Made by a program: the position numbers and the translations under genes. Under the pieces are notes generated by a model. That model was given only the letters and a program-made list of their open reading frames with translations. It made no database searches and was not told where the DNA came from. From Ruminococcus sp. (GTDB lineage: Bacteria > Bacillota > Clostridia > Oscillospirales > Ruminococcaceae): a stretch of DNA of 64,000 bases. The stretch spans positions 60,550 through 124,549 of the forward strand of contig JAFXDK010000042.1 in the NCBI GenBank assembly GCA_017521805.1, written 5' to 3'. Below, piece after piece: positions 9,743-12,354 of the stretch; within the stretch, counting starts at the first letter, position 1; each line of letters starts with the position of its first letter.

Positions 9743-11230
9743 CTAAAATTCATAATACCGCGCGTTTACCGCCTCACAAAAAGTCCTGTCGTGTTCAACG
9801 ATAAGCATAGAGGGTTTACAGCTGATTATCAATTCTTCAAGCTGTTTTCGTGAATATACATCAAGATAATTCAGCGGTTCGTCCCAGATGTACAGATGAG
9901 CAGGGGTACAAAGACTTGCGGCAATCAAAACTTTTTTCTTTTGCCCATCGCTGAAATCAGCAATATCTTTTTCAAACTGCTCCCTTGAAAAATCAAGTTT
10001 GCGGAGAATGGCTTTAAACAGGCTTTCATCGAATCCGTTAGCTGTCGCATAGTCGGAGAGATTTCCTGAAAGATGTGAAAAATCCTGTGAAATACGCGAT
10101 ATTTTCAGCTGACGGTTCATCGTTATCTCGCCTGTGTGAGAGACATTCTCGCCGCAGATAAGCTTGATTATACTTGTTTTTCCGCAGCCGTTTTTCCCCG
10201 AAAGTGCAAGAATTTCTCCCTCGCTTATGTCAAAGGAAACATTATTACAAATCACATTTTCATCATAACTGACAGACAAATTTCTCACACTCAATAGCCT
10301 TGAACTGTGGAATTTCATTACAGGCAGTTTCAACACAGCCGTTTTCTCGATATTTTTCAGAAGTCCCGATTTTTTCTCAATATCCGCTTCGATTCTGTTT
10401 TCCATAGACTTTGAGCGATTCATAAGTTTTTTTGATTTTCTCGCAACAGAACAGCGTCTTGATATGGATTTTTCGGTTTTTGTCGGGTCAAATCCGATTT
10501 TTGTACTTTCAATGCGGTCGGAGTGTTCAGCGGCATGGCGTGCAGCGGCTTCAAGGTTTTTTATTTCCTTTTTCAGCCTGTCATTCTGAACGGCTTCAAA
10601 GTTGTCCCTTGCCGCTTTATTTCTCTCCCACGAGGAATAATTTCCCTGTTCGATTTCAATATTAGTCCTGTTGATTGAAAGCACATGGTCTATACATTCA
10701 TCAAGTACAGCGCGGTCATGGGATATAAGTATAAATCCTTTTTTCCGCTTCAGATATCGGCTTACGATTTCTCTGCCTTTTCGGTCAAGATGATTTGTAG
10801 GCTCGTCTATCAGTAAAAAGCAGTTTTCGCGGAGAAACAGCATAGCAAGCATCACCTTTGTTCTTTCGCCTCCCGAAAGTGTTATAAATGGGCGATATAG
10901 CACATCATCGCTTACTTCAAGGAGAGAAAGCTCCCTTACAAGTTCCCAGTTTTCAGCGTTTGGGCATATTTCTTCCGCAAGAAATACAACAAGGGAATTT
11001 TCATCGGCAACATGAAAGGGGAAATATTCAAAATCCACGCTTGAAATAATTTTTCCGATGTATTCCTGTTCCCCCATAAGAAGCTTCATAAAGGTAGTTT
11101 TTCCTCTGCCGTTTCGCCCTGTGAATCCAAGTTTCCAGTCCGTGTCAATACGGAAACTTACATTTTCAAAGATGTTATCAGCACTTCCGTCATAGCCAAA
11201 AGTGAGATTTTCTACACTTATTACAGACAT
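9743..11230 (-). CDS. ABC-F ribosome-protection ATPase, Lsa/Vga-like
   Basis: Soluble ABC-F protein of 495 residues with two nucleotide-binding domains and no membrane part. ABC-F members of this branch dislodge lincosamide, streptogramin A or pleuromutilin antibiotics from the ribosome. First domain: Walker A GRNGRGKT (38-45), signature LSGGER (118-123), LIDEPTNHLD (140-149). A charged helical linker spans about 190-300. Second domain: Walker A GKNGCGKT (345-352), signature FSDGQ, and WDEPLNYLDV. The last motif, in place of DEPTNHLD, is typical of the Lsa/Vga group. The ATG at 11230 follows GGAGG with nine bases between. A leader with a terminator and tiny ORF lies upstream, as in other drug-inducible ABC-F genes. 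The substrate drug is not known. Confidence 0.88.
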   Translation of the reverse strand: MSVISVENLTFGYDGSADNIFENVSFRIDTDWKLGFTGRNGRGKTTFMKLLMGEQEYIGKIISSVDFEYFPFHVADENSLVVFLAEEICPNAENWELVRELSLLEVSDDVLYRPFITLSGGERTKVMLAMLFLRENCFLLIDEPTNHLDRKGREIVSRYLKRKKGFILISHDRAVLDECIDHVLSINRTNIEIEQGNYSSWERNKAARDNFEAVQNDRLKKEIKNLEAAARHAAEHSDRIESTKIGFDPTKTEKSISRRCSVARKSKKLMNRSKSMENRIEADIEKKSGLLKNIEKTAVLKLPVMKFHSSRLLSVRNLSVSYDENVICNNVSFDISEGEILALSGKNGCGKTSIIKLICGENVSHTGEITMNRQLKISRISQDFSHLSGNLSDYATANGFDESLFKAILRKLDFSREQFEKDIADFSDGQKKKVLIAASLCTPAHLYIWDEPLNYLDVYSRKQLEELIISCKPSMLIVEHDRTFCEAVNARYYEF

Positions 11231-11250
11231 AATACAATACCTCCGATAAT

Positions 11251-11280
11251 ATAAAAATAGCCGCAGGATATACTGCGGCT
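11251..11280 (-). terminator. Attenuator terminator before the ABC-F gene
   Basis: The perfect 8-bp stem AGCCGCAG/CTGCGGCT with loop TATATC is followed by ATTTTTAT, ending only about 20 bases before the ABC-F start codon. Its position before rather than after a gene marks it as a regulatory terminator. Confidence 0.85.
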
Positions 11281-11435
11281 CATAATTTATACGTCGGAAG
11301 TACCCAAAGACAGCAGAATATGGCTGTCCCAAGTAATGACTGTATTATATGAAAAGACCGTAATATTTCCTGCAGGGCACAACAAAACAGACGGTATTGC
11401 CGTCATTGTTTATATGTTGTTTGCCCGATTAATTC

Positions 11436-11456
11436 TTAGCAGGAAATTTTACGCAT
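11436..11456 (-). CDS. Leader peptide MRKISC
   Basis: A seven-codon ORF (six residues plus stop) with its own ribosome site (GAGGTGG, four bases before the ATG), starting about 25 bases after the likely transcription start. Codons 4-6 form the strand that pairs with the antiterminator segment at 11365-11373, so translation through it should control folding. No homologue search was possible. Confidence 0.7.
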   Translation of the reverse strand: MRKISC

Positions 11457-11486
11457 CTTTCCACCTCAATTCTTATAATATGTTTC

Positions 11487-11515
11487 ATTCTATCACATAT
11501 TTCAAGAAATGTCAA
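11487..11515 (-). promoter_or_regulatory. Promoter of the ABC-F leader
   Basis: Minus strand TTGACA (11510-11515) and TAGAAT (11487-11492) with a 17-bp spacer. It predicts a leader of about 250 bases before the ABC-F gene. Confidence 0.85.
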
Positions 11516-11756: not shown

Positions 11757-11785
11757 TTGACATTCGTTGAATTTTGGTCTACAAT
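11757..11785 (+). promoter_or_regulatory. Promoter of the small regulator pair
   Basis: TTGACA (11757-11762) and TACAAT (11780-11785), 17 bp apart, 45 bp before the ATG at 11830. It may also serve the downstream yaaO-holB-ricT run. Confidence 0.8.
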
Positions 11786-12066: not shown

Positions 12067-12354
12067 TTGTCAAAGAGAAACTGTTACTATGATACCTCAA
12101 CAGGCGAGGCAGATGATTATATTCGACAATTGTTGAAGCACAGTCAACACAACAAAGCGGGAGAAATAACGTTAAAAATAATAAATAATGAGCTGACTGC
12201 GAGACAAAAAGAAATATTTATGCTATACTATTTTAAGGAACTGACTCTGGCTGAGATTGCTCGATCTCAAGGTATATCTCATCAGGCTGTTTCCGCAGTC
12301 ATTTCAAGGGCGAGAAAAAGGATTTTCCGATATATGAAATATTACTTTCAATAA
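12067..12354 (+). CDS. Sigma-70 region-4-like helix-turn-helix protein
   Basis: 95 residues. LTARQKEIFMLYYFKELTLA followed by EIARSQGISHQAVSAVISRA and a basic tail is the region-4 HTH of sigma-70 factors; there is no region 2, so it is not a complete sigma factor. Phage and integrative-element regulators and YlxM-type proteins share this layout. The start is a TTG at 12067 overlapping the end of the previous ORF region behind GGAGGGG; no ATG is available in frame nearby. It is probably co-transcribed with the preceding small ORF. Target unknown. Confidence 0.7.
   Translation: MSKRNCYYDTSTGEADDYIRQLLKHSQHNKAGEITLKIINNELTARQKEIFMLYYFKELTLAEIARSQGISHQAVSAVISRARKRIFRYMKYYFQ

Follow-up and report, generated by a model that had tools for sequence, protein, structure and literature searches.

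A predicted ribosome-sensing transcription attenuator ahead of an Lsa-like ABC-F gene in Ruminococcus, and its relatives with very short leader reading frames

The leader, its gene and its predicted folds

The DNA stretch considered here, hereafter called the window, comprises 64,000 nucleotides of a Ruminococcus sp. genome (assembly GCA_017521805.1, contig JAFXDK010000042.1, positions 60,550 to 124,549; position 1 of the window is its first letter) and carries on its minus strand an Lsa-like ABC-F gene preceded by a candidate attenuator. This leader reads, from 5' to 3', promoter, Shine-Dalgarno sequence (SD), a six-codon open reading frame (ORF) for MRKISC, a hairpin, a pairing element called segment 2, another hairpin, an intrinsic terminator and the gene (Table 1). 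The terminator stem, AGCCGCAG-UAUAUC-CUGCGGCU (11280-11259), is followed by a U-rich tail, and the gene has the SD GGAGG, followed by its ATG at 11230. A consensus promoter, the MRKISC frame with its own ribosome site, two hairpins and the terminator had been described in an initial annotation made from the letters of the window, and all of them lie where it placed them. The gene, which the same annotation took for an ABC-F gene of the resistance type, encodes a protein that passes the cut-off of NCBIfam NF000355 (ribosomal protection-like ABC-F; 473.2 bits, cut-off 380) and whose top PDB sequence match is Lsa(A) (7nhk, E 3e-132, residues 1-488). By family likeness, the gene product would protect the ribosome against lincosamides, pleuromutilins and streptogramin A, the drugs with which ARE3 is listed in published work (PMC10201436). 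Most of the closest named relatives of the source genome are metagenome-assembled genomes (MAGs) of Ruminococcus recovered from the gut of goat, sheep and buffalo. Note also that a search of the window with the Rfam 15 families gave no match at the gathering score.

The leader folds at -93.8 kcal/mol, compared with -54.7 +/- 4.5 kcal/mol for dinucleotide shuffles, none of which equaled it (0/200; z -8.8). Without masking, part of the leader SD, the AUG and the pairing element inside the leader ORF (segment 1) are predicted to pair with segment 2 over about 24 base pairs (bp) with two mismatches, forming an anti-antiterminator, and the terminator forms as well; the perfect 9-base pairing of the leader ORF with 11365-11373 that had been noticed initially is present within this longer element. 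The comparison of folds with and without a masked leader ORF, proposed at the same time, came out as expected, since with the ORF and its SD held unpaired the terminator is replaced by an antiterminator of about 21 bp that takes both terminator arms, and of which the previously noted GCAGGA/TCCTGC pairing is only a part. In partition function calculations, a 34-nucleotide (nt) footprint at the start codon of the window leader raised P(antiterminator) from 0.00 to 0.85 and left the terminator at 0, and two control masks placed in loops left its state unchanged. When the footprint was slid along the leader, every position of the peptidyl (P) site from codon 1 to codon 8 gave a full flip; the neighboring codons gave a partial one (0.68 just ahead of codon 1, 0.27 at codon 9), and positions beyond these gave none. 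Two exclusive states are thus predicted, as initially proposed, but they do not depend on a specific ribosome position: in this model the state is set by the presence of a ribosome on the leader and not by the identity of one codon. The predicted swap holds for a transcript that ends at the terminator. An exact word shared by the three segments was rejected as evidence, given that 274 of 1000 shuffles of the leader contain one at least as long and that the best such word found in the window is an unrelated six-mer; the significance of the leader comes from its total fold and its conservation, not from a shared six-base word.

Table 1. Features of the leader and of the gene that follows it, in window coordinates
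Feature	Position	Strand	Basis or remark
Promoter, sigma-70 type, TTGACA-17-TAGAAT, TG ahead of -10	11487..11515	-	Sequence; promoter of this kind matched in 19/20 related (window-type) leaders
Leader-ORF SD, GAGGTGG	11461..11467	-	First six bases identical in all 20 window-type leaders and in 13 near leaders
Leader ORF, ATGCGTAAAATTTCCTGCTAA, ATG to TAA, MRKISC and stop, six codons	11436..11456	-	Final codons TCC TGC double as segment 1
Pairing stretch inside the leader ORF, ATTTCCTGC	11439..11447	-	9 bp with GCAGGAAAT, 11373-11365
Anti-antiterminator, 5' arm (part of SD, AUG, segment 1)	11439..11464	-	Predicted folds; pairing in 13 near leaders
Anti-antiterminator, 3' arm = segment 2, GCAGGAAATATTACGGTCTTTTCAT, begins with GCAGGAAAT	11349..11373	-	Predicted folds; pairing in relatives
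Inner hairpin 1, within the anti-antiterminator loop	11375..11426	-	Predicted folds
Inner hairpin 2, between segment 2 and terminator	11309..11328	-	Predicted folds
Antiterminator, 5' strand, forms on masking of the leader ORF	11348..11374	-	Masked folds
Antiterminator, 3' strand = segment 3, overlaps the terminator stem	11262..11284	-	Masked folds
Intrinsic terminator, 8 bp stem (11280-11259), then AUUUUUAUAUUAU	11246..11280	-	Sequence; fold
Stem 11302-11294 with 11246-11238, encloses the terminator and sequesters the gene SD	11238..11302	-	Predicted in both states
Lsa-like ABC-F ribosomal protection-type gene, 495 aa and stop	9743..11230	-	Profile and PDB matches

On the plus strand nearby, a short ORF (12067-12354) would encode, by eye, a protein resembling the helix-turn-helix of sigma-factor region 4, and a promoter-like site (11757-11785) lies upstream of it.

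Relatives of the leader

Homologs of the gene occupy 66 places in 63 of 125 genomes of the genus, the source genome included, and the upstream sequence could be read at 65 of these, the last one being cut by the start of its contig. Sorted by reading, 20 upstream sequences are of the window type, 41 belong to a second type, one (L046) encodes MINFSC and three carry no leader. The window-type set analyzed further consists of 20 leaders, 19 of them from the genus and one (L038) from a MAG of the named collection, with L015 left out. Their peptides are MRKISC, MRRISC, MRKFSC, MRIVSC, MRNISC, MRYNFC (with a TTG start) and MRK, meaning that the leader ORF spans from six (MRKISC) down to three (MRK) codons. 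In all 20, segment 1 ends 18 nt from the start codon, be the ORF three or six codons long, and the five leaders in which MRK is directly followed by a stop (L012, L018, L019, L020 and L078) still carry TCCTG[C/T], as does L015 by eye. The swap on masking was predicted in 18/20 window-type leaders and in none with either control mask; the first of these masks covered 34 nt throughout, and the second had this length in 11/20 here and in 99/100 of the Paenibacillaceae leaders described below and was shorter in the others, down to 11 nt. By a second, separately defined swap test, the terminator was lost in 16/20, and the 3' arm found a distant partner with a probability above 0.5 in only 10/20. 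In L015 (G031:C159) the MRK leader lies further upstream; much more sequence separates segment 1 from the terminator, and additional hairpins can be seen there by eye.

A covariance model of the first hairpin (R1) matches this site alone in its own genome, apart from an antisense echo. In the 125 genus genomes it has 21 strong places (E 1.4e-7 or better), of which 19 precede such a gene and the other two lie near a sequence end with no gene in view. Close copies of the leader look dedicated to the Lsa-like gene; R1 missed both L015 and the second type and is therefore informative on close copies alone. One genome (G046:C186) has, in addition to its normal locus, an extra leader copy (L264:1501-1614, 133 bits to R1) situated after a recombinase-like ORF (3-1202, by eye) on a sequence that ends 11 bases past the leader, possibly a mobile copy.

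The second type found in Ruminococcus (MKR followed by a stop, or similar) counts 41 leaders, of which three are incomplete or divergent by the patterns used and 38 could be parsed. Their ORF has three codons in 37/38 and four in the remaining one, the commonest being ATGAAAAGATAA (24 leaders), and the distance from its start to the end of the pairing element is 22 nt in 37/38. An anti-antiterminator is predicted in 36/36 leaders with a recognizable third segment. In some of them, for example L025 and L066, the anti-antiterminator stem holds the leader SD and is directly followed by UUUUU; the first hairpin of this type may itself be a terminator, broken by a ribosome on the leader. L071 (G062:C28), which has the second-type segment 2 and terminator and lacks the leader-ORF half, is a naturally truncated attenuator.

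In Paenibacillaceae the gene was found in 215 of the 295 genomes searched, that of the query included (E <= 1e-150), and 106/130 upstream sequences had a segment 1, an SD and a start codon that satisfied the rule applied; 100 of the 106 had blocks anchored alike and were used for the swap test. In 73/106 the start codon is directly followed by a stop, resulting in a bare start-stop ORF (68 ATG, 5 GTG; a second rule gives 81/106), compared with 47/1212 for the other ATG or GTG codons of the same sequences. The remaining ORFs include MDISC (7), MDFSC (5), ME (5) and MK (2). The ORF is at most eight codons long in 106/106, where a fraction of 0.35 per leader would be expected, and the start lies 15-19 nt before the end of segment 1 in 98/106. 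The swap was predicted in 87/100 of these leaders and in none with either control mask; the second measure gave loss of the terminator in 80/106 and a far-upstream partner of the 3' arm above 0.5 in only 36/106. A class-wide draw added 20 close leaders, of which the rule applied classes seven as start-stop, at 16 nt. The window leader itself, with its six codons, is not of the start-stop form.

Initiation at the start-stop ATGs is putative, and the start-stop reading has further weak points. The spacing to the SD is, by the motif rule, often long (12 nt in 32 leaders) or short (3 nt in 46), and a TTG or CTG stands right after the SD in 87 leaders, in frame with the ATG in 75/87. Such an alternative start would itself be without spacing to the SD; in 12 leaders its frame differs from that of the ATG, and 19 leaders lack it. 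The triplets after the start codon (TAA 29, TAG 32, TGA 12, TGG 2; Fisher p 0.015) provide weak support for selection of a stop codon through the avoidance of TGG, because pairing with segment 2 alone already favors T-purine-purine. Two Paenibacillaceae lsa-like genes (G268:C1:3385919-3387376 and G390:C1:4010920-4012374) have one in-frame TGA each, reflecting either decay or sequencing error.

The three segments differ between the two clades in a concerted way, from TTTCCTGC/GCAGGAAA/TCCTGC in the Ruminococcus-type leaders to TTTCTTGC/GCAAGAAA/CTTTCTTGC in Paenibacillaceae, a joint change of CC/GG to CT/AG. With segments 2 and 3 placed by best complementarity, and compared with shuffles of segment 2 that ignore relatedness, the anti-antiterminator core is paired in 98.1% of cells over 120 leaders (95.0 +/- 0.3% after shuffling; 0/2000 as high) and in 96.9% in the 20 Ruminococcus-type leaders alone (89.5%; 2/2000), and the antiterminator core in 98.1% (95.0%; 0/2000) and 90.6% (87.7%; 43/2000), respectively; the 104-row segment set includes at least one wrong anchor (L098). 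Among 13 near leaders, 95.9% of the anti-antiterminator cells are paired, compared with 47-58% for slid partners.

At the level of the order, the gene is present in 52 of the 197 genomes searched, the source genome included (E <= 1e-120), and 27/29 upstream sequences contain, by eye, an upstream ORF (uORF) of three to seven codons, including MRNISC, MRKISC, MYRFSC, MRNFSC, MIR, MKNR, MINFSCK and others. A duplex of the start region with downstream sequence beats shuffles (<= 2/200) in 16/24 of these leaders, two being too short. Upstream of lsa-like genes of Bacilli (L303-L308 and L310) a different conserved leader is seen by eye, with a 17-codon ORF (of the kind MSNSDTIVTHVMLYISR and stop) that has an SD and follows a terminator-like U-run; the leader appears to be a further attenuator, of the peptide type. 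In front of distant Bacilli homologs (L316-L319), a three-codon ORF that begins with TTG (MRF or MRL) runs, by eye, into the start of AATCTTGC, again with 18 nt from start to segment end and with CAAGATT downstream, a like layout in other letters.

Proposed mechanism and rival explanations

We regard it as likely that the leader is a ribosome-mediated transcription attenuator of the Lsa-like gene, which would sense a ribosome held by a drug near the start codon. The computation itself yields the parts, the conservation of their pairing, the predicted swap and a constant distance between start and segment 1; transcription start, termination and read-through inside the cell, the class of drug and independence of the peptide are inferred. 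In the absence of drug, ribosomes would translate the leader ORF quickly and depart, because it is tiny; the SD and ORF region would then pair with segment 2, the terminator would form and RNA polymerase would halt about 230 nt into the transcript. An early blocker of the peptidyl-transferase center (by family analogy a lincosamide, a pleuromutilin or streptogramin A) would hold the ribosome on the first codons, where it would cover all or most of segment 1, freeing segment 2 to capture both terminator arms, and transcription would run on into the gene. The sensed variable would be the dwell time of the ribosome near the start codon, and a gut commensal would thereby get a likely inducible ribosome-protection gene.

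Several results weigh against this mechanism. The protein scores below the cut-off of the NCBIfam Lsa family NF000167 (703.5 bits; cut-off 750), for which reason the gene is called Lsa-like and not Lsa proper. Folded in full, the masked leader returns to the terminator and the SD stem, so that the decision would have to fall co-transcriptionally, with RNA polymerase still near the terminator. The gene SD is predicted to be sequestered in both states, so that the sequestering stem is at most a candidate part of the switch, and coupled translation control is not claimed; a coupled release of the gene SD was considered and is not predicted in the window. Two window-type leaders (L007 and L009) stay below a P(antiterminator) of 0.5 on masking, 13/100 Paenibacillaceae leaders do not swap, and three genus homologs (L016, L021 and L023) show no leader. 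Masking brings out the antiterminator in only 9/36 leaders of the second Ruminococcus type, which counts against one shared mechanism. Of the order-level leaders, 27 entered the test, a terminator was found in 23, and of these 0/23 reached the swap criterion and 3/23 lost the terminator; because the same second measure gave terminator loss in 16/20 and 80/106 of the main sets, a faulty measure does not by itself account for this low figure. The expectation that the pairings be conserved in relatives was thus borne out in the clade of the window, although more distant leaders mostly have no predicted antiterminator. Finally, the shuffle statistics take no account of relatedness, and the 13 near relatives show no covariation beyond shuffles (49/500), their pairing being nearly invariant; covariation is therefore not used as proof.

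One alternative is that the nascent leader peptide (MRKISC or MRK) is itself read together with drug and exit tunnel, as in erm and msrD leaders, with a stall at a defined codon. M-R is common in Ruminococcus-type and order-level leaders, and the uORF sequence of vmlR is reported to alter efficiency, MRK being weaker than MIN, MDN and MDK (PMC9226507). Against this, the peptides are diverse (MRKISC, MRIVSC, MRYNFC, MYRFSC, MIR, MKR, MRK, MDFSC), the 73 start-stop leaders of Paenibacillaceae would encode the start residue alone, and it is the distance that is constant and not the peptide, the flip being predicted at any of the first eight codons; we therefore hold this explanation to be unlikely. 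Since the leaders ending after MRK retain TCCTG[C/T], 'SC' is best read as RNA and MRKISC is unlikely as a sensor, and as the ORF varies in length at a constant distance between start and segment, the conserved I-S-C letters are, from the sequences compared, best read as RNA pairing sequence and not as peptide. The leader peptide is probably incidental. We lean slightly towards the further step that the leader ORF is a mere landing pad, the pairing element ending 15-22 nt after its start codon in the leaders parsed, and that the start-stop form of Paenibacillaceae would sense the first reaction in the aminoacyl (A) site, namely peptide release, with no peptide made.

The leader could also respond to amino-acid shortage through its UGC (Cys) or CGU (Arg) codon, the last codon of the window ORF being Cys and codon 2 being Arg in 20/20 Ruminococcus-type leaders. 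Start-stop leaders and those for MRK, MKR or MDM lack a Cys codon, elongator codons are altogether absent from the start-stop form, and the downstream gene encodes a ribosome-protection ATPase and not a biosynthetic enzyme, which makes this explanation barely credible. More simply, a plain constitutive terminator and an SD-blocking hairpin could keep the gene low, the ORF and the alternative pairing being unused; sequestration of the gene SD in both states fits such an arrangement, as does the lack of a predicted antiterminator in most second-type and order-level leaders. It would leave unexplained both a start codon with an SD at a set distance from segment 1 and the length limit of the ORF (106/106 at most eight codons, with 0.35 expected), and we consider it very improbable. 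Attenuation upon drug-induced ribosome stalling remains our preferred explanation, and natural leaders free of peptide would help to decide between peptide and parked ribosome in ABC-F attenuators.

Comparison with known systems

On its sequence features, the window leader belongs to the rli53/vmlR/cplR kind, here placed on an Lsa-like gene. The initial annotation had named attenuation of the vmlR type, and this mechanism is already established for vmlR of Bacillus subtilis, an ABC-F gene with a short uORF (MIN) in an anti-antiterminator, an antiterminator, an intrinsic terminator and a hairpin over the gene SD (PMC9226507). As described there, initiation at the vmlR uORF is required, a toeprint lies 16 nt from the A of the AUG, and the four peptides tested all function, unequally (PMC9226507). 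Differently from vmlR, the window has an Lsa-like gene, other leader sequences and a six-codon uORF with segment 1 inside the ORF, and start-stop uORFs occur among its relatives. In Listeria, rli53/lmo0919 is similarly described as having an anti-antiterminator and antiterminator over a three-amino-acid ORF, with induction by lincomycin-stalled ribosomes (PMC8079631, PMC11550727), but its gene belongs to another ABC-F subfamily, ARE1 (PMC10201436), the comparison being one of descriptions and not of alignments. The cplR leader of Clostridioides difficile shares a short uORF (MR[I/M]), a terminator and SD sequestration, and drug induction has been shown for cplR; its terminator stem holds the gene SD, giving coupled release, whereas the SD stem of the window is predicted to persist (PMC10201436). 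For lsa(A), the predicted uORF reported in the same source is MAGN, a peptide other than that of the window (PMC10201436). The uORFs of are5sc (MLV) and tiaA in Streptomyces are likewise accompanied by predicted terminator and antiterminator forms, but they precede actinobacterial ARE5 genes and lie in other leaders (PMC12421871).

In the open-license library searched, we found no report of the start-stop form in an attenuator. Start-stop ORFs as such are reported in bacteria from ribosome profiling (PMC11955535, citing work in E. coli), and start-stop sites are described in studies of E. coli initiation (PMC9841429). By default uORF4u, a uORF finder applied to this gene class, takes in ORFs of nine nucleotides or more (PMC10219788), and a six-nucleotide start-stop ORF would therefore not be listed at that setting; if the start-stop reading is true, uORF searches requiring at least three codons overlook such leaders, attenuators can sense inhibition of the earliest catalytic step that a ribosome makes, and a class of antibiotic sensors exists without any leader peptide. 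The family Paenibacillaceae, in which start-stop leaders are frequent, includes cultured members. What looks new with respect to the systems known so far is the comparison itself, in which the leader ORF shrinks at a constant distance from the pairing element, down to start-stop forms.
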